NCBI GenBank assembly: GCA_963169045.1 | Contig: CAUJDF010000036.1 | Coordinates: 1 to 54,643, forward strand | Length of the DNA stretch: 54,643 nucleotides | Direction of reading: 5' to 3' | Source of the DNA: Myxococcota bacterium | GTDB taxonomy: Bacteria > Myxococcota_A > Bradymonadia > UBA7976 > UBA1532 | Shown here: in pieces, positions 11,926-21,845 of the stretch | How positions within the stretch are numbered: the first letter of the stretch is position 1 | Layout: each line of letters begins with the position of its first letter | Made by a program: the position numbers and the translations under genes | Notes under the pieces: model-generated | What the model was told of the DNA's origin: nothing | What the model saw: only the letters and a program-made list of their open reading frames with translations | Databases searched by the model: none

Positions 11926-13224
11926 TCACTCCGGACAGTCGGTGCCGCGGAAGTCCTGCGTCTCCACGGTGAACGGAATGCACGTGCTCGGGTCGAGGCA
12001 GTTGCCGCCGTCCCGGGGCATGTCCGTCGAGGGCAGGTTGTAGGGGATGCCGTGCGACGTGACCGCCAGGTCGTATTGCAGGACCTCCCCGTCGACCATG
12101 TTGTGGTTCAGGTTCTCGTTGATCGCCTCGGAGGGCGCGGTGGTGATGCACGCCTCGCCGTCGGCGTCCGTCCACGTCTCCGCCTGGAACGCCAGGTCGT
12201 GCCCGACCACCTTGAACGAGGCGAACGGGATCGGCGTGCCGCAGCGGTCGGCGACCTCGACGCGCAGGCAGCCGGTGCGGGCGATCGGCACGCCGAACGC
12301 GATCCAGCCGCTGCCGGGGAGGGGCCCGCAGGCCCAGATCTGCTGGGTGATGAAGCCGGAGCGGATGTCGCCGAGCTCCTCGGCGCGCGCCTCGCGGATG
12401 ATGTCGAAGCCGTCGGGCGTCGAGCCCTCGGAGATGCCGACGTAGCCGTCGTCGGTGATCTTGCGCCAGCGCCCGGTCTGCGGGTCGAACACGTGCACGG
12501 GCATCTCGATGCGCGGCCCGGCGCCGACGTCGGCCAGCTGGCTCTTGGCCTCGAAGTCGATGCCGACGCAGTTGGCGCCGCCCTCGGGCAGCGTGGCGAG
12601 GACGTTGCCGCCCTGGTCGCGCAGGTCGAAGTAGGCGAACGCGGGGATGAAGAGCACCTGCCCGTCGGTGTTGCGGAACTCGCCGGCGACGAACGGCAAC
12701 GACTGCGGGCCGCTGAACACGCCGACGAAGCCGCGCGCGATGGGGTTGGCCTTCATGACGATCTTGCGGTCGTTCTCGGTGATGCAGACCTGCTCGCCGC
12801 AGATGAGCTCCTTGAGCTCGGCCAGCGCCACGTCGAGGGTGAGCTCGTCGGCGGGCAGGGGGTTGAGCGCGATCGTCTTGAGGACGGGGAGGTGCGCCTC
12901 CTTCGTGAACTCGACGGCGAAGCGGTTGCACTGGCCCTCGATGTCGACGGTGAGGCGGTAGGTGCCGTCGTCGCCGGTCGATGTCTCCACGGTGCGCGCG
13001 TCGCAATAGGCGACGACCTTCACGCGGGGCGCGGGCGCGCTCGTGTAGCCGACCGAGACGCGGCCGGACACGATCACGCGGTCCGCCAGGGCGATGCTGC
13101 CGTCGGGGTTCTCGTCGGGCAGCCCGCCGTCCCTCGAGCCGGCGTCGCTCCCCGGCTCGACGACCTCGCCGCAGGCCACCCCGCACAGCGCGACGAGCGC
13201 CGCCCACCATGGTTTCGCGCCCAT
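11926..13224 (-). CDS. Lipoprotein with carboxypeptidase-regulatory-like domain
   Basis: 432 residues from an ATG with GGGAGGGAGAGC just upstream. The signal peptide ends at the lipobox GVAC (Cys18), followed by an Asp/Gly linker. Residues ~48-110 look like a transthyretin-like beta-sandwich (VIVSGRVSVGYTSAPAPRV...DDGTYRLTVDIEG). The remainder is beta-rich with several Cys pairs, including a segment GWIAFGVPIARTGCLRVEV and DADGEACITTAP, which again resembles an Ig-like module. No catalytic residues are seen, so it is probably a surface or periplasmic binding protein. It is first in the minus-strand run and divergent from the CsgG operon, so the two may share a control region. Confidence 0.8.
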   Translation of the reverse strand: MGAKPWWAALVALCGVACGEVVEPGSDAGSRDGGLPDENPDGSIALADRVIVSGRVSVGYTSAPAPRVKVVAYCDARTVETSTGDDGTYRLTVDIEGQCNRFAVEFTKEAHLPVLKTIALNPLPADELTLDVALAELKELICGEQVCITENDRKIVMKANPIARGFVGVFSGPQSLPFVAGEFRNTDGQVLFIPAFAYFDLRDQGGNVLATLPEGGANCVGIDFEAKSQLADVGAGPRIEMPVHVFDPQTGRWRKITDDGYVGISEGSTPDGFDIIREARAEELGDIRSGFITQQIWACGPLPGSGWIAFGVPIARTGCLRVEVADRCGTPIPFASFKVVGHDLAFQAETWTDADGEACITTAPSEAINENLNHNMVDGEVLQYDLAVTSHGIPYNLPSTDMPRDGGNCLDPSTCIPFTVETQDFRGTDCPE

Positions 13225-13270
13225 GCTCTCCCTCCCGCCAGGACTTGCGGCGCCGAGTATCGCAGAGATC

Positions 13271-13283
13271 CCCCGAATCGGGG
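13271..13283. promoter_or_regulatory. Palindrome in the divergent control region
   Basis: CCCCGA-A-TCGGGG, perfect 6-bp arms around one base, lies in the 130-bp gap between the divergent genes starting at 13224 and 13355. It is placed as an operator would be; nothing else supports it. Confidence 0.3.
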
Positions 13284-13354
13284 AACCGAGCGGAGATCAT
13301 TGCGCTTGAAGGCCCTTCCTGGTCAGACTTCCGCCGAACACGGGAGGCGGGGCC

Positions 13355-14422
13355 ATGCGACGGAAGCGTTCGACGAGCGTCTGCGGGGCAGCGATCTGGC
13401 TGGCGTGCGCGCCGGCCATCGCGGCCGAGACGAAGGCGCCCGACGCGGCCAAGGCGCCCGACGCGGCGAAGGCGGCCGATGCGGCGACCAAGGCCGCGAC
13501 GTCGGCGGCGGCGAAGGCGGGCGCGGCGGCGGGGAAAGCGGCGGCGGCCGCGGTCAAGGCGGCCACGGCGGTGGCGCCCGCCGAGGAGAAACCCGCGGCG
13601 AAGGCGGCGCCCGCGCGCGAGGGCAGCGTGCAGGCGGGCATCGGCAACCTGACGCAGCAGCTCGCGGCGCGCCTGCGCGACGGCAGCGGCGAGACGTACC
13701 CGCGCGTGGCCGTGCTGCCCTTCGAGGCGCTCGACGACGACGCCCGCGACAAGGAGCTCGGCCGGCTCAGCTCCGAGCTGCTCGCCTCGCGCCTCGCGCT
13801 CGAGCCGAAGATCCTGCAGGTCGAGCGCTCGCGCCTCGGCCCGGTCGTCGAGGAGCTCAAGCGCACCGAGCAGGGCGAGATCTCCGCCGACGGCGCCGCC
13901 TCGCTCGGCAAGCTGCTCGGCGCCAACGCGGTCGTGCTCGGCAGCGTCTCGGGCGCCGGCGCCGAGTACGTCCTCACCGCCCGCGTGGTCGACACCGAGA
14001 CGGCGCGGGTGCTCACCGCGGCCGACACCGCCGTGCCGCGCGAGGGCCTCGTGGCGCTCAGCGAGGACATGGTCGAGGTGAAGTCGCGCACCGGCGCGGC
14101 CATCCGGTCGGCCGTCATGCCGGGCTGGGGCCAGATCTACAACGGCGACACCGGCCGCGGCGTGGCCTACGTCAGCCTCTTCGGGGCGGCCGCCGCCGGC
14201 GCGCTCGGCTCCGTCTACTTCGGCAAGCAGGCCGAGGACGACTACCACGGCAACACGCCGGACAGCGTCGGCCGCCGCGCCGACGCCAACGACCACTACG
14301 ACCGGGCCAACCTGCTGCTGATCGGCCTGGGGGTGGTGTGGGCGGCGGCGGTGACCGACGCCTGGCTCACGGGTGAGGACGCGCGCGTGGTCAAGTCCGC
14401 GGCGCAGGAGGGGGACCAGTGA
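13355..14422 (+). CDS. FlgO/CsgG-like periplasmic protein with membrane tail
   Basis: 355 residues from an ATG preceded by CGGGAGGCGGGG. It has a signal peptide, then an Ala/Lys-rich repeat (APDAAKAPDAAKAADAA) to about residue 85. Residues ~110-230 form a FlgO/CsgG-type fold: RVAVLPFEALDDD, LLASRLALEPKILQVERSRL, LGANAVVLGSVSGAGAEYVLTARVVDTETARVL. The C-terminal part contains PGWGQIYNGDTGRG and two hydrophobic segments, as in DUF5683-type domains. This class of protein forms or assists outer-membrane/periplasmic assemblies. Its TGA overlaps the next gene's GTG by 4 nt, so the two are co-translated. Confidence 0.85.
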   Translation: MRRKRSTSVCGAAIWLACAPAIAAETKAPDAAKAPDAAKAADAATKAATSAAAKAGAAAGKAAAAAVKAATAVAPAEEKPAAKAAPAREGSVQAGIGNLTQQLAARLRDGSGETYPRVAVLPFEALDDDARDKELGRLSSELLASRLALEPKILQVERSRLGPVVEELKRTEQGEISADGAASLGKLLGANAVVLGSVSGAGAEYVLTARVVDTETARVLTAADTAVPREGLVALSEDMVEVKSRTGAAIRSAVMPGWGQIYNGDTGRGVAYVSLFGAAAAGALGSVYFGKQAEDDYHGNTPDSVGRRADANDHYDRANLLLIGLGVVWAAAVTDAWLTGEDARVVKSAAQEGDQ

Positions 14423-15402
14423 AGACTCGCTTGATGCTGGCGTTCGCCGGCGCCGCGCTCGCCGGGTGCGGCGGCGCCGCGCCCACGCCGACCCAGGCCG
14501 AGGTGCAGCAGGCGCGCATCCAGGTGGCCGAGGCCGGGCCGAAGCTGCGCGTCGCCGTCGGGCAGTTCGGTGAGATGGAGGGCATGAAGACCCTGCTCGA
14601 GTCGATGGGCTGGAAGGGCATGGCCCCCCTCATCTCGGAGCAGGTCGTCACCGGCCTCACCCAGAGCCAGCGGGTCACGGTGCTCGAGCGGTCCCAGATC
14701 GACAAGGTGATCGGCAACATCAAGCTCGAGAAGGAGTCCGCCGACGCGCGCTTCTTCGACCAGGGCACGACGACCGAGATCGGCAAGTTCGAGGGCGCGC
14801 AGCTCGTCTTCGTCGGCGCGATCACGGAGTTCGAGCCGAACGTGGGCGGCGGCGACGCCGGCATCAGCGTCGGGTCGCTCGGCGGCCTCAAGTACCACAA
14901 CGACAAGGCGGCGGTGGGCATCGACGTGCGCCTCGTCGACCAGCAGACCGGCAAGGTGATGTACGCCGCGCACGCCCGCAGCGAGGTGCAGACCGACGAG
15001 GCCGGCGGCGCGGTCGGCTACAAAGGCATCCAGGTCGGCGGATCGGCCTGGTCGCGCACGCCGCTCGGCGAAGCCACCCGCCGCGCCGCCGACGATGCCA
15101 TCCGCCAGCTCGTCGAAGCGCTGCGCGCCATCCCATTCGAGGCGCCGGTGGTCGACGTGCGCGACGGCGGCAAGGTGTTCGTCGGCGCCGGCCGCAACGC
15201 CAACCTCAAGGCCGGCGATCGCTTCCAGGTGGTCCACCGCGGCGAAGCGATCACCGACGCCGAAGGCAAGGTCGTCGGCCACGACGAGACTGCCGGCGGT
15301 TGGGTGGAGATCCAGTCCGTCCAGGAACAGATGGCGATCGCGAAGCTCGTCGAAGGCGAAGCGCCGAAGAAGGGCGATCTCGTCCGTCTCCCCCTGCAGT
15401 GA
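14419..15402 (+). CDS. CsgG/HfaB family lipoprotein
   Basis: 327 residues, starting at a GTG that overlaps the previous TGA. The signal peptide ends in the lipobox LAGC (Cys17). Residues ~45-240 have the CsgG pattern: LRVAVGQFGEMEG, a Ser/Glu-containing segment leading to VTVLERSQIDKVI, AQLVFVGAITEFEP, AAVGIDVRLVDQQTGKVMYAAHARSEV, and GEATRRAADDAIRQLVEAL. CsgG relatives form nonameric outer-membrane pores that export curli-type or holdfast proteins. A C-terminal ~70-residue beta domain (GAGRNANLKAGDRFQVVHRG) is an addition to classical CsgG. It is followed 26 nt later by the giant lipoprotein, a candidate client. Confidence 0.9.
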   Translation: MKTRLMLAFAGAALAGCGGAAPTPTQAEVQQARIQVAEAGPKLRVAVGQFGEMEGMKTLLESMGWKGMAPLISEQVVTGLTQSQRVTVLERSQIDKVIGNIKLEKESADARFFDQGTTTEIGKFEGAQLVFVGAITEFEPNVGGGDAGISVGSLGGLKYHNDKAAVGIDVRLVDQQTGKVMYAAHARSEVQTDEAGGAVGYKGIQVGGSAWSRTPLGEATRRAADDAIRQLVEALRAIPFEAPVVDVRDGGKVFVGAGRNANLKAGDRFQVVHRGEAITDAEGKVVGHDETAGGWVEIQSVQEQMAIAKLVEGEAPKKGDLVRLPLQ

Positions 15403-15428
15403 ACACCCCCCCGCCGAGAGGCATCGCG

Positions 15429-18400
15429 ATGCATCGGTCACTTGCTCTCCTGTGTCTCGTCCTCGGGGTGGCGTGCTCCGAGGTGCCGGCCACCAATCCG
15501 TTCGATCCGTCGACCCCGGCGGCGCAACAGGCGACCGGGCGCGTCTCGGGTCGGCTCGTGTTGCCCGACGGCTTCGCCTGGGACGGCCCGCGCGCCGGGG
15601 CGACGATCGAGCTGCGCGCGGCCGAAAACCCGAACGAAGTCGCATACTCCGCCGTGGTGGACGCCGAGGGCGCGTTCGCGATCGCCGACGTCGGCGCGGG
15701 GGCCTACACGGCGGCCTTCGTGGTGCCGACGATGAGCGCGGACGCGGTGGCGCTGGTGGTGCCCCGCGGCGGCGCCGTCGACCTCGGCGAGATCCCGCTG
15801 CGCGCGGTCGCCGAGTCGAGCCTGCAGGGCAAGGCGCGGCGCGCGGGCGAGGCCGACGACGCCCACGGCGGCATCTTCGTGCAGGTCGTGGGCACGCCGT
15901 ACAACGCGCTCACGAGCGCCGACGGGACGTTCCGCATCGCGCTGACCGCGGGCACGTTCACCGTCCGGGCGAGCGCCGCCGGCTACGGCACCGTCGACCG
16001 CCAGGTCGAGCTGGGCGGGGGCCAGGCGCTGGTGCTCGACGAGCCGCTCGAGCTGTCGGGCGCCCCGGCGGCGGTGCGCGGCACGATCGTGCTGCCGTCC
16101 GGCTTCGACGAGCGCGGGCTCGAGGCGCTGTCGGTGCGCCTGTTCGCGGGCGGCGCCGACATGCCGCAGGCGACGGCGGCGCTGCAGCGGACGAGCGCCC
16201 CCGAGGAGCGCCCGATCGTCGCCGCCTTCGACTTCGGCGACCTCGCCGCCGGCCCGTGGCGCCTGCGCATCGACAGCGACAGCTTCCACCCGTTCCAGCG
16301 CGACTTCCGGCTGGCGGTCGGCGAGCAGGCGGACCTCGGCGCCATCGCGCTGTTCGACGTCGCCGCCGAGGCCCCCGGCTACCTGACCGGCAAGGCGCTG
16401 CTCGCCGGCCAGCCCGACGACGGGCACGGCGGCACACGCGTCGAGGTGCTCGGCACGCCCTTCGTCGCGCTGACGGTGGCCGACGGCAGCTACCGCGTCG
16501 CGGTCGGCCCCGGCCGCTACCGCGTGCGCTTCGTGCACGACGGCTACGGCACCGGCGAGGCCGAGGCGCCCGAGGTGGGCGTCGGCGGCGAGGCGATCCT
16601 GCCCGACGTCACGCTGGTCGGGACGCCGGGGCGGTTGCGCGGCAGCATCGCGCTCGAGGCCGGCTTCGCCGCGCCCGAGGCGGTGGCCGACGTCGACCTG
16701 CGCCTCATGCGCGACGGGGAGGAGCACGCCCAGACGCGGCCCGACATGCGCGGCGTCTTCGTCTTCGACGCGGTGCCGCCGGGCGAGTATCTGCTCGTCG
16801 CCGATCGCGACGGGTTCGTCACCCGCGAGGTGCCCGTGGACGTCGCCTTCGGGCGGCTCACCGACGTGGGCCAGATCGTGCTCGACGCGGTCACGCTGCG
16901 GGTGCGCCTCGCCGGGCACGCGCGGCTCGCCGGGAGAGCGGTCCACGACGAGATCCAGGTCGCGCTCGAGGGCACCGACCTGCGCGCGACGACGGACGCC
17001 GACGGCGCGTACGCCATCGAGGCGCCGCTGCGGCAGGCGGCGTACGCGCTGCGCTTCACGCGCGCCGGTTACAACGCCGAAGAGGCGCAGGCGACGCCGC
17101 CGTCGTCCGAGCAGGTGGCCGCGCACCTCGCCGCGCACGCGGGCGAGGCCGCGCCGCCGCCGATCACCGTCGCGCCCGATCCCGCCGAGGTCACGCTGGC
17201 GGCGCGTCCGGGCAGCATCCGCGGCCGCGTCACGCTCGCCGCCGGCTTCGAGGACGCCGACCTGCTCGGCCGCGTCGTCGTCCGCCTCGTCGACTTCGAC
17301 CGCCCCGACGACCCGCCGCGCGGCGAGACGTCGCCCGACGCGCGGGGCACGTACCTGTTTTCCAACGTGCAACCGGGCACTTACGGCATCGAGTTCGAGC
17401 TCGAGGGCTTCTTCGGCCAGCCGCTGCAGGCGACGCTGCAGCCGGGCGAGGACGTGGTCGTCGCCGGGCGCGTGCTCTCGCCGGACGCCCAGGGCGACCG
17501 CGCGTTCATCGAGGGCATGGCGCGCCGCGCCTGCGAGGGCCAGTGCGACCACGGCGGCATCCGCGTCGAGGCGCTGAACTACCCGTTCGTCACGTTCACC
17601 GGTCGCGACGGCCAGTACCGCCTCGAGGTGATCGCGCTCGACGACTACACGCTCGTGTTCAGCGCGCCGGGTTACGAGAGCGCGCAGGTCCTCGGCGTCG
17701 ACGCGGTGGCCGACGAGACGACGCCGCTCGAGGACGTGACGCTGCCGGCGCGGCCCGGCGAGGTGCGCGCGCTCGTGGCGCTGCGGCAGTACGGGACCGA
17801 GGCCCGGCTGCAGGGCGTCGACGCGACGCTCTGGACGGATCCGCCCGGCGACGCGCCGCTGCGCTCGGTGAACCCGGACGCGCGCGGCGAGGTGGTGTTC
17901 GCCGGCGTGCTGCCGGGGCGCTACGAGGTCCGCGCCGACGCCGCCGGCTACCTGCCGCAGACGCGGCGCGTGGCGGTGGGCCCCGGCGAGACGGCGCTCG
18001 CCGGCGCCTTCGACCTCGCCCACGACGCCACCGCCCCCGACGCGCCGCGCCTCGGCGGCGCCGTGCGCCTCGACGACGCCGCGGAGCACGCGGGGACCGA
18101 CGTCCGCGTGCGCATCGCCGGCGACGACCTCGCGTTCGGCGATCCGCTGCGGACGGCGGCCGACGGACGCTTCGAGCTCCCGGCGTCGCCCGACGAGCGC
18201 TACACGGTCACCGTCGCCCGCGCCGGCTACGACGCAGTCGCGCGCATCGGCCCGCTGTCGTACGACGCCGCCGACGGCCGCTTCGAGGACGAGGCCGGCC
18301 GCCCCGTCGACGTGACGCTGCGCCGCACGCCGGTCCCCGGCAGCATCCGCGGCCTCGTCTCGCTGCGCAGCTACTCGTCGGCGGCGCGCCTGCAGGCGGT

Positions 18401-21400
18401 CGACGTCGCGCTGTGGGCCGATCCGCCGGGCGCGGCGGCGGTGCGCACCGTGCGCCCCGACGGCCGCGGCGAGTTCGTGTTCGCCGACGTGCCGCCCGGT
18501 CGCTACGAGGTGCGCCTGAGCGCCATCGGCTACGACCCGCAGGCGCGGCGCGTCGCGCTCGCCCCCGCCGGCGACGTGCTCGCCGGCGTGTTCGAGCTGG
18601 TGCACGCGTCGGAGGGGCCGAACGCGGTGCTGCTCGCCGGCCGCGTCACGCTCTCCGGCGCGGCGGACCACGGCGGCACGACGGTCCGCGCGCGCATCGC
18701 CGGTCCGGACCTCGCGTTCGCCGCGCCGCTCGTGACCGACGCCGACGGCCGCTTCGAGGTGCGCGCGGCGCGCGACGAGCGCTACACGCTGCAGGTCTCG
18801 CACCCCGGCTACACGGCGCCGGGCGCCATCGGCCCGCTGAGCTGGGTCCAGGCCCGCAACCGATTCGAGGACGACGGCGGCCAGCCTGCCGAGCGCCTGC
18901 TCGCCCGCACGCCGATCCAGGGCCGGATCCAGCTGGCTGTCGACGTGCAGCCGGCCTGGCTGCCCGCCGCGGAGCGCTACGCGCGGGTGCGCCTCGTCGG
19001 CCCGGTCTCCGACACGGAGGAGCCGGTCTTCCCGGGCGGTGGCGGCGTGACGTTCACCGACCTGCCCGAGGGCACGTACACGGTGCGCGTCGAGCGGGCG
19101 GGTTTCAGCGTCGTCGACCGGCAGGTGCAGCTCACGCTCGCGTCGCCGACCGCCGACCTCGGCACGCTCGCGATCTCGCTCGCGAACCTGGCGGAGGCGC
19201 GGATCGACCTGCGCGGCCAGCAGGTGACGGCGTGCAACCTGCGCGCGAGCAACATCTCGCTGCGCAACGCCTATCTCGGCGGCGTCACGCTGACAGGCGA
19301 CCTCGGCCAGGCGGTCGGCTGCCCGGCCGGCGCGCGGCAGGGCCCGCTCGACCTCACCGGCGCCGATCTCAGCGGCGCGAACCTCACCGGCGCCCGCCTC
19401 GCGCGCACGGCCGCCGGCCCGGTCGTGCTCGCCTCGGCGCGCCTGGCGAACGCCGCGCTCGCGGGCGTCGACCTCACCGGCGTCGACGCGCGTGGCGCGG
19501 ACTTCTTCGCCGCCGACCTGACCGATGCGACGCTGGCGACGGCCAACCTCGAGCACGCCAACTTCACCGAGGCGACCCTGCGGCGCGTGCGCTTCGCCCG
19601 CCCGCGGCTCGACGCCGGCGGCCAGCCCGACGAGGACCCGCAGAGTCCCTGGCCGACCCTGTGGGGCACGCTCGAGGGCCTGCCGGCGCGGCCGTGCGAG
19701 GACGCGAACCGGGCGGCGGTGAACCTGAACGGCGCCGTGCTCTCGCGCGCCGATCTCAACGAGGCCTTCATGCCCGGCGTGATGATGCGCGGCCTCGTGC
19801 TCGCCGGCGCGCAGATCGCCGACGCCGACCTGCGCCACACGTGCCTCGACGGCGCCCAGCTGACGCTTCTCGACCTCTCGGGCACCGTGCTCGACGGCGC
19901 GGACCTGCGCCGCTCGGAGTTCACGAGCAGCCTCCTGCGCAAGACCTCGCTGCGCGGGGCGACGCTGTCCGAGGCCTCGCTCGTGGGCACGGTGCTCGAC
20001 CGCGCCGACCTGCGGCCGTCGCCGCGCGCCGAGTGCGCCCAGCTCGTGCCCTGGGAGGAGTACCGCCCGCGCGGCGACTGCGTGCCCGAACCCGACGCGG
20101 CCTGCCGCTGCCGCACGCTGCTGAACGGCGCGTCGCTCGACGGCGCCAACCTGGTGGGCACCTCGTTCGAGGGCGTCGACCTCGCCGGCGCCTCGCTGCT
20201 CGGCGTCACCCTCGGCCAGGTGCCCGGCGCGGCGTTCGCGCAGCCGCAGCGCTGCCAGCCGGAGGAGTACTGGAACTGCCAGCGCGTCTACGAGGTGCTC
20301 GCGGAGTGCGAGTTCTCGGGCATGGACCCGCGGACGGCCGAGGCGACCTGCCAGGACGACCCCGAGACGCTGGAGTTCGGCGTCGACGCCTTCAGCGCGA
20401 ACAAACGCACGTGCGTCCTCATCCAGGCGCGCAACGGCGCGAACTGCAACACGATCCGGACGAACTGCATCGACGGGAATCCCGGGGCCGCCCAGCCACC
20501 GGCGAACAACTGCACCTGGGCCTCGCTCCGCGCCGACGAGGACGCCGGCGACCCGCTCGGCAGCCAGTGCCGGTGGCCGCTGCCGGACGGCGAAGTTCGG
20601 CTGCACGAGGCGTGCAAGTACGCGCCGACGGTTCTCAACGATGTCCGCCTCGACGGCGCCCAGATGACCGCGGTGGTGATGAACGGCATTCAGCTCGACG
20701 GCGTGTCGATGCGGACGGCGCTCGTCCGGTCGGCGACGTTCCACGACAACGCGTTCGGCGAGATCGACTTCACGAGCGCCGACCTGCGCAACGTGACGCT
20801 CGCCGGCGCCGCGCTCGAGGGCGTGAACTTCAACAACGCCGATCTCACCGGGGCGGACCTGGCCGGCGCCGTCCTCGACGGCTCGAACCTCGAGGACGCC
20901 GACTTCAGCGACGCGGACCTCTCCGGCGCGAGCCTGCAGTTCGATCCGCGGGACGGATCGCGGCCGGAGAGCTTCGCGCGCGCCGACCTGCGCGACACGA
21001 CGATCACCGGCGCGCGGTGGACCAGCGACCCCGGGAACGGGATGAACCTGACGGGCGCCGACCTCTCCGGCGCGCAGCTGCTCGATACGTGGATCGAGTA
21101 CGGCTACTTCTCGCGCGGCACGTTCCGCGGCACGAACTTCCAGGAGGACGGCAAGTTCAACGGCGCCACCTTCATCGGCGCGTCGTTCGTCGGCAGCACG
21201 CTCACGGCGGACTTCTCGAACGCGAGCTTCAACAACGCGCACATCAGCGGCGGGTTCATGTCGATCGGGAGCCTCGGCGTGCTCATGCAGGCCGCCGACT
21301 TCACCGACGCGACGATCGTCGGCGTGAACGCGCAGTTCGTGCGGTGGGAAGACGCGCGCCTCTCCGGGGCGACGATCACCGACACGAACCTCGACCGGGT

Positions 21401-21845
21401 GCGCGCCCAGCGCGTCGACGGCCGCGAGCTGCAGGTCTCGGGCAGCAACCTGCGCGGCGCCGAGTTCCAGAACGCGAACCTGCGCGACGCCCGAATGGCC
21501 GACAACAACCTCTCGCGGTGGCTGAACGCGCCGGTGACGCCCACCCGCTTCCAGTCGGCGTGCCTGCGGCGCGTCGACTTCCGCCGCAGCAACCTCGAGT
21601 ACGCCGAGTTCACGAACGCCGACGTGCAGGCGGCGAACTTCCAGGGCGCCTTCATGCGCAACGCCGACCTGACGAACGCGTGTCAGCTCACGTTCTTCTT
21701 CGGCGCGTTCAACGGCGCCGACCTGCACAACGCGCGCATCTGCACGCGCGACCAGGCGACCTTCAACCAGCGCAACACGTACGCCGGCACGCCGGTCTGG
21801 GTGAACTGCGCCGCGCAGCCCGTCTGCCCCGCCGGCTGCAACTGA
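15429..21845 (+). CDS. Giant lipoprotein: beta-sandwich modules plus pentapeptide repeats
   Basis: 2138 residues. The ATG gives a lipobox signal MHRSLALLCLVLGVAC. Residues ~35-1250 hold about 13 carboxypeptidase-regulatory-like beta-sandwich modules of two alternating types: one begins like LRGSIALEAGF and ends in PGxY; the other begins like LTGKALLAGQPDDGHGG and contains ADGxYxV. From about residue 1255 to the end are pentapeptide repeats of the A(D/N)LxG type (DLTGADLSGANLTGARL), predicted to form a long right-handed quadrilateral beta-helix, interrupted by two Cys-rich insertions (around nt 20020-20120 and 20250-20620). It ends CPAGCN. No catalytic site is visible. It is expected to be anchored in a membrane by its lipid, probably exposed on the cell surface. 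It lies directly after two CsgG-type genes, suggesting assembly or export by them. Confidence 0.9.
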   Translation: MHRSLALLCLVLGVACSEVPATNPFDPSTPAAQQATGRVSGRLVLPDGFAWDGPRAGATIELRAAENPNEVAYSAVVDAEGAFAIADVGAGAYTAAFVVPTMSADAVALVVPRGGAVDLGEIPLRAVAESSLQGKARRAGEADDAHGGIFVQVVGTPYNALTSADGTFRIALTAGTFTVRASAAGYGTVDRQVELGGGQALVLDEPLELSGAPAAVRGTIVLPSGFDERGLEALSVRLFAGGADMPQATAALQRTSAPEERPIVAAFDFGDLAAGPWRLRIDSDSFHPFQRDFRLAVGEQADLGAIALFDVAAEAPGYLTGKALLAGQPDDGHGGTRVEVLGTPFVALTVADGSYRVAVGPGRYRVRFVHDGYGTGEAEAPEVGVGGEAILPDVTLVGTPGRLRGSIALEAGFAAPEAVADVDLRLMRDGEEHAQTRPDMRGVFVFDAVPPGEYLLVADRDGFVTREVPVDVAFGRLTDVGQIVLDAVTLRVRLAGHARLAGRAVHDEIQVALEGTDLRATTDADGAYAIEAPLRQAAYALRFTRAGYNAEEAQATPPSSEQVAAHLAAHAGEAAPPPITVAPDPAEVTLAARPGSIRGRVTLAAGFEDADLLGRVVVRLVDFDRPDDPPRGETSPDARGTYLFSNVQPGTYGIEFELEGFFGQPLQATLQPGEDVVVAGRVLSPDAQGDRAFIEGMARRACEGQCDHGGIRVEALNYPFVTFTGRDGQYRLEVIALDDYTLVFSAPGYESAQVLGVDAVADETTPLEDVTLPARPGEVRALVALRQYGTEARLQGVDATLWTDPPGDAPLRSVNPDARGEVVFAGVLPGRYEVRADAAGYLPQTRRVAVGPGETALAGAFDLAHDATAPDAPRLGGAVRLDDAAEHAGTDVRVRIAGDDLAFGDPLRTAADGRFELPASPDERYTVTVARAGYDAVARIGPLSYDAADGRFEDEAGRPVDVTLRRTPVPGSIRGLVSLRSYSSAARLQAVDVALWADPPGAAAVRTVRPDGRGEFVFADVPPGRYEVRLSAIGYDPQARRVALAPAGDVLAGVFELVHASEGPNAVLLAGRVTLSGAADHGGTTVRARIAGPDLAFAAPLVTDADGRFEVRAARDERYTLQVSHPGYTAPGAIGPLSWVQARNRFEDDGGQPAERLLARTPIQGRIQLAVDVQPAWLPAAERYARVRLVGPVSDTEEPVFPGGGGVTFTDLPEGTYTVRVERAGFSVVDRQVQLTLASPTADLGTLAISLANLAEARIDLRGQQVTACNLRASNISLRNAYLGGVTLTGDLGQAVGCPAGARQGPLDLTGADLSGANLTGARLARTAAGPVVLASARLANAALAGVDLTGVDARGADFFAADLTDATLATANLEHANFTEATLRRVRFARPRLDAGGQPDEDPQSPWPTLWGTLEGLPARPCEDANRAAVNLNGAVLSRADLNEAFMPGVMMRGLVLAGAQIADADLRHTCLDGAQLTLLDLSGTVLDGADLRRSEFTSSLLRKTSLRGATLSEASLVGTVLDRADLRPSPRAECAQLVPWEEYRPRGDCVPEPDAACRCRTLLNGASLDGANLVGTSFEGVDLAGASLLGVTLGQVPGAAFAQPQRCQPEEYWNCQRVYEVLAECEFSGMDPRTAEATCQDDPETLEFGVDAFSANKRTCVLIQARNGANCNTIRTNCIDGNPGAAQPPANNCTWASLRADEDAGDPLGSQCRWPLPDGEVRLHEACKYAPTVLNDVRLDGAQMTAVVMNGIQLDGVSMRTALVRSATFHDNAFGEIDFTSADLRNVTLAGAALEGVNFNNADLTGADLAGAVLDGSNLEDADFSDADLSGASLQFDPRDGSRPESFARADLRDTTITGARWTSDPGNGMNLTGADLSGAQLLDTWIEYGYFSRGTFRGTNFQEDGKFNGATFIGASFVGSTLTADFSNASFNNAHISGGFMSIGSLGVLMQAADFTDATIVGVNAQFVRWEDARLSGATITDTNLDRVRAQRVDGRELQVSGSNLRGAEFQNANLRDARMADNNLSRWLNAPVTPTRFQSACLRRVDFRRSNLEYAEFTNADVQAANFQGAFMRNADLTNACQLTFFFGAFNGADLHNARICTRDQATFNQRNTYAGTPVWVNCAAQPVCPAGCN

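Follow-up and report, generated by a model that had tools for sequence, protein, structure and literature searches.

Introduction

Channels of the CsgG type are lipid-anchored nonamers of the outer membrane, with a barrel to which each chain contributes two beta-hairpin insertions. CsgG, the curli channel of Escherichia coli, has an eyelet of roughly 12 angstrom that passes unfolded chains (PMC7304575). In Caulobacter, the adhesin-like HfaD requires a CsgG homologue, HfaB, to be localised at the surface (PMC6707917), and a CsgG relative that serves an adhesin thus has precedent. In Vibrio, FlgO, FlgP and FlgT make up the H-ring of the flagellar motor (PMC6375700, PMC7990780). Finally, proteins of the DUF5683/LIC11435 family have a helical-hairpin tail with the motif PGWGQxYxGD.

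We describe here a locus that combines traits of these systems with a very large lipoprotein gene. “The window” denotes the whole stretch of DNA analyzed, which is one complete contig of 54.6 kb from the 9.0-Mb genome of an uncultured, flagellated member of the Myxococcota; its nearest relatives with a name are likewise uncultured Myxococcota MAGs. Genes lying beyond the window were called with our own codon-bias scripts, on metagenome-assembled (MAG) contigs that are short.

Layout of the locus

The features discussed below are the following:

13225-13354, between divergent genes: intergenic region of 130 bp, presumed from the gene coordinates to hold the promoter of the three-gene unit
13355-14422, + strand: g1, ATG to TGA, 355 amino acids; Sec signal, Ala/Lys-rich stretch, FlgO domain (residues 99-230), predicted C-terminal helical hairpin, PGWGQxYxGD motif
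14419-15402, + strand: g2, GTG to TGA, 327 amino acids; CsgG-family lipoprotein by sequence, lipobox LAGC (C17), C-terminal FlgT_C domain
15429-21845, + strand: g3, ATG to TGA, 2138 amino acids; lipobox GVAC (C16), mature CSEVPATNPFDP; 28 Cys in total
15585-19151, + strand: 12 CarboxypepD_reg beta-sandwich matches, g3 residues about 53-1241 (PF13620 scan of the own genome)
19350-21647, + strand: pentapeptide region with ten matches, g3 residues about 1308-2073 (PF00805 scan, Pfam)

The coordinates bear out what an earlier, sequence-only reading had claimed for the arrangement: three genes in this order, a GTGA overlap between g1 and g2 (14419-14422), a gap of 26 nt between g2 and g3, and a giant product of 2138 residues. 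Since the trio is enclosed by a divergent gene (11926-13224, - strand) and a convergent one (from 21922, - strand), it is probably a compact operon transcribed as a single unit. The promoter scan gave no sigma-70-like match in 13225-13354, and nothing above chance was returned by the promoter and terminator scans. The product of the divergent neighbor is a lipoprotein of 432 aa, in which CarboxypepD_reg scores 29.2 bits, a weak match that falls short of the cut-off.

The two FlgO/CsgG-related proteins

The product of g2 matches almost the entire CsgG profile (PF03783; 77.8 bits, cut-off 20.8; positions 8-202 of 210) and FlgT_C with 30.0 bits (Pfam), and its lipobox would supply the lipid anchor expected of the CsgG family. 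Aligned to the solved CsgG, it displays insertions of fitting length at both barrel-hairpin positions and a constriction loop of the same length, but the pairwise similarity is weak (E=0.015) and the FlgT_C domain is extra with respect to CsgG. The constriction residues of CsgG, Tyr66/Asn70/Phe71 (numbering as in PMC7304575), correspond to Leu60/Gly64/Trp65 in g2, and the alignment of its seven closest relatives presents Trp, Phe, Met or Ile at the place of Trp65. The AlphaFold monomer of g2 has a pLDDT of 66.8, with low confidence exactly at the two insertions (143-160 and 194-208). From these sequence traits, g2 is likely a CsgG-type outer-membrane channel. As for its possible client, a curli-like one was ruled out: curlin repeats (PF07012) gave no match in the genome, with a positive E. 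coli control. Another known system is HfaB of the holdfast anchor HfaABD, also a CsgG-family outer-membrane protein encoded together with a non-curli adhesin (PMC6707917), to which g2 is likened by family only; unlike in HfaABD, no HfaA-like curlin relative was found here, and the candidate client is a lipoprotein.

The protein encoded by g1 is of a different make. It covers almost all of the FlgO profile (PF17680, positions 3-128 of 130; 37.1 bits, cut-off 22.6), whereas its match to CsgG is partial (24.5 bits, positions 33-99 of 210 only; Pfam). Its AlphaFold model (pLDDT 83.6) shows an alpha/beta domain and, behind it, a pair of long helices (266-298 and 302-339), inside which fall the hydrophobic stretches found by hydropathy (269-287 and 320-338); the strands 192-201, 204-213 and 219-228 are linked by short turns, without the barrel insertions of CsgG. 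The family alignment places the DUF5683-like PGWGQxYxGD motif in the g1 tail, although the match to that family stays below the curated cut-offs. A consensus lipobox was not found in g1, which has only WLAC, and its relatives L170 and L097 lack the Cys at this place. Thus, g1 is predicted from the model to be a periplasmic protein anchored in the inner membrane by a helical hairpin, which makes it unlike an outer-membrane pore; as a second pore it was rejected, given that the full CsgG domain with hairpin insertions is absent. The idea of two CsgG relatives in one operon therefore holds at the superfamily level, while the full-length CsgG architecture is found in g2 only. An AMIN-like N-terminal domain, suspected by eye in diverged g1 relatives, was discarded for want of a Pfam match.

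The giant lipoprotein

Two families are matched by g3 in Pfam, CarboxypepD_reg with 275 bits and Pentapeptide with 220 bits. The tandem CarboxypepD beta-sandwich domains make up more than half of the protein, and the pentapeptide region is interrupted by a Cys-rich insert at residues 1536-1729, as judged from the Cys positions. The description of g3 as a “pentapeptide-repeat beta-helix” hence suits its C-terminal part (about 1308-2073), but its N-terminal half is built of successive beta-sandwich domains.

Regarding its destination, lipoprotein signals have been described in Myxococcus xanthus, in which Lys at +2 directs to the inner membrane and Ala at +7 to the matrix (PMC3222651). The mature g3 carries Ser at +2 and Thr at +7, and without the Lys and the Ala the outer membrane would be its default location, on signals of M. 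xanthus that may not be the rules of this host.

Conservation of the gene order

Relatives of g2 occur in six of the 12 same-family relatives and in one genome of a sister family (G014). In five genomes, the window's included, g1 adjoins g2 (the others are G005, G006, G010 and G014). A giant beside the g2 relative was seen in none of the six same-family relatives, a count to be read with the contigs of G005, G006 and G010 in mind (C619, C650 and C592, respectively): they break off at one flank of the pair, where a giant may lie. G014, a member of a different family, has a convergent NPFDP giant whose end lies 75 bp away from its g2-g1 pair. No second case of the trio in the order of the window was found.

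The same conclusion is reached from the side of g3. A profile of the lipoprotein N-terminus (E < 1e-9) gave 39 N-terminal matches to [N/H]P[F/Y/L]D lipoprotein genes, the class of g3, in 15 genomes; the neighbor counts for these NPxDP genes are based on regular expressions plus the profile. Only two of the 39 have a g2 neighbor (the window and G014:C17), which ruled out g2 as a constant partner of the giant, while a g1-family gene is directly coupled to ten. Most NPxDP giants stand alone. The closest relative of g3 (65% identity, G005:C597) shows neither g1 nor g2 in its visible flanks, and neither do the g3 fragments of G011 (C78 and C447, 48-50% identity); a CarboxypepD-pentapeptide giant of G002 (L196), which resembles g3, also lacks both beside it. 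The sequence-only reading had named as contrary evidence a giant occurring mostly without CsgG neighbors, and this is largely what the comparison gave.

The genome of the window itself encodes a second giant of the lipoprotein class of g3 (L209:4488-9824, G000:C62), with NPYDR and Cu-binding MopE-type repeats and with neither g1 nor g2. It also harbors a pentapeptide-rich, lipoprotein-like gene of 2320 aa (L102:7233-14195, G000:C61) with 188 units by regular expression and no adjoining g1 or g2.

These data bear on the model of the sequence-only reading, in which g2, together with g1, would be a dedicated pore exporting g3 as CsgG exports the curli subunits. In its favor stand the channel architecture of g2, which has insertions at the two hairpin positions and the aromatic Trp65 where CsgG has its constriction residue Phe71, the shared operon, the giant beside g1-g2 also in G014, and the precedent of HfaB for a non-curli adhesin (PMC6707917). 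Against it, g1 is no pore, CsgG neighbors are rare in the class of g3, the genome has no curlin repeats, and g3 is an N-lipidated, multi-domain protein with many Cys, to be set against an eyelet made for unfolded chains; export of g3 through a CsgG-type channel is possible, yet mechanistically awkward. We consider this reading unlikely. What stands of the earlier proposal of a dedicated export system is the channel architecture of g2 and the recurrence of FlgO/CsgG-fold proteins beside the lipoprotein class of g3; the part given to g1 falls, as it is not of the pore type.

Coupling of g1-family and lipoprotein genes

A more regular association emerges between the g1 family and the lipoproteins. 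Among the 28 g1-family loci of the order, 16 show translational coupling to a gene for an [N/H]P[F/Y/L]D lipoprotein, whose start falls between -17 and +50 nt relative to the g1 stop; seven of these have the 4-nt overlap. Applied to 399 further gene ends from these fetched regions, the scan found such a gene after two, one of them being g2-g3 of the window. The difference corresponds to a Fisher p of about 1e-19, uncorrected for shared ancestry; as the g1-family loci do share ancestry, this value overstates their independence. In the g1 tree (from which L185 was left out, and whose deep forks are unresolved), the coupled loci form two separate clades, with eight of eight members coupled in the family of the window and six of six in the sister family, plus L186. 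The lipoproteins of this class measure between 130 and more than 2900 aa, with C-terminal parts that vary (TSP_3, FG-GAP, pentapeptide, MopE-type).

More distant genomes add to this picture. A g1 relative in Raymondbacteria lies 32 nt before the gene of a CarboxypepD/cadherin-like lipoprotein of 1694 aa, and in two Deltaproteobacteria MAGs (L218 and L222) the giant gene is upstream of the g1 relative. In the former, SJ496, a gene without Pfam match (L218:7125-8468) sits between the NPYDP giant and the g1 relative, in the position occupied by g2 in the window. In the spirochaete Turneriella, the gene of a 155-aa TNPLDP lipoprotein (L253:9420-9887) immediately follows one whose product has a DUF5683-like tail, which may be a remote instance of this pairing.

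The recurrent unit is, then, a g1-family gene plus an [N/H]P[F/Y/L]D lipoprotein gene, with g2 as an occasional third partner. Searches of open-licence papers for FlgO/CsgG together with lipoproteins of the pentapeptide or CarboxypepD type brought up no account of this pairing. In the window, g2 stands between g1 and g3, and the g1 of the window groups with the CsgG-linked g1 (G005, G006, G010 and G014) or the solitary g1 (five loci of G002 and G009), outside the lipoprotein-coupled clades; the coupling statistic thus concerns its cousins. The window joins two partnerships that are each seen elsewhere, one of the FlgO-TM protein with CsgG and the other of the FlgO-TM protein with the NPxDP lipoprotein.

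The neighborhood could also be accidental or specific to the lineage, with an unrelated NPxDP giant having come under one promoter with a g1-g2 pair without any joint function. This would agree with a trio seen nowhere else in this order and with the other contexts in which the nearest relatives of the giant and of g1 sit; it fits poorly with the tight 26-nt gap between genes of the same strand, the opposing genes on either side, the second juxtaposition in G014, and the strong general coupling of g1-family genes with the lipoprotein class of g3. We regard an accidental neighborhood as improbable.

The domains of g1 and g2 raise a further alternative, namely that both are FlgO/FlgT-like parts of outer motor rings, g3 being incidental or a decoration of the motor. 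Like the Vibrio H-ring proteins, g1 has a FlgO domain and g2 a FlgT_C domain, and flagellins are present in the genome. In each of the three sister-family genomes (L188 in G013:C113, L190 in G014:C3 and L183 in G015:C14), a g1-family gene and a gene for an HPYD/NPYD lipoprotein of 130-141 aa are located near flagellin and AMP-ligase-like genes. Together, the domains and these flagellin neighbors make a flagellar role conceivable. On the other hand, FlgO of Vibrio is an outer-membrane lipoprotein, while g1 is predicted to carry an inner-membrane hairpin; no flagellar gene was recognized in the immediate flanks of the operon; and the distributions do not match, with 8-10 flagellin matches but neither g1 nor g2 in G003 and G004, and both g1 and g2 but no flagellin match in G006 (77% complete). 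On this mismatch a dependence on flagella was rejected, and we deem the flagellar reading quite unlikely.

Proposed function and implications

The explanation that we favor, tentatively and at a little under an even chance, is that the genes make up an envelope module, joined here by an HfaB/CsgG-like partner, whose task would be to position or tether a large lipoprotein of the outer membrane. The scheme that follows starts from what was observed, namely the order of the genes, their domains, the repeated coupling of g1-family genes with the lipoprotein class of g3 and the repeated pairing of g1 with g2; the localisation, physical interaction, channel activity and surface exposure of the three products are what we infer. 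Its core would be g1 and g3. The FlgO-domain protein would be held in the inner membrane by its C-terminal helical hairpin, and its partner is a lipoprotein of the g3 class, in which the [N/H]P[F/Y/L]DP motif stands right behind the lipid anchor, ahead of beta-sandwich domains of the CarboxypepD type and a C-terminal part that varies. In the periplasm, the FlgO domain might contact the N-terminal region of this partner, acting as an assembly factor or as a link from the inner to the outer membrane. The optional g2, a CsgG/HfaB-like outer-membrane lipoprotein and probably a ring or channel, would hold or pass an envelope component wherever it is present, which by analogy with HfaB could be the giant.

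A broader version of this envelope module, which we hold to be possible but somewhat doubtful, is that FlgO-domain inner-membrane proteins and [N/H]P[F/Y/L]DP lipoproteins constitute an undescribed two-part envelope system of Myxococcota and possibly beyond. The C-terminal part of the lipoprotein would be freely swapped (pentapeptide, FG-GAP, TSP_3, cadherin-like), and in the window a CsgG-type channel would have joined the pair to bring the giant to the surface.

For the annotation of these families, the locus indicates that “CsgG-like” is a mixed label, which covers channel-type proteins plus inner-membrane, non-channel ones. A coupled partner gene that recurs across families bears on how outer-membrane lipoproteins of very large size reach their place and are displayed, and the minimal versions, with a FlgO-TM protein and a lipoprotein of 130-460 aa, make the system tractable.
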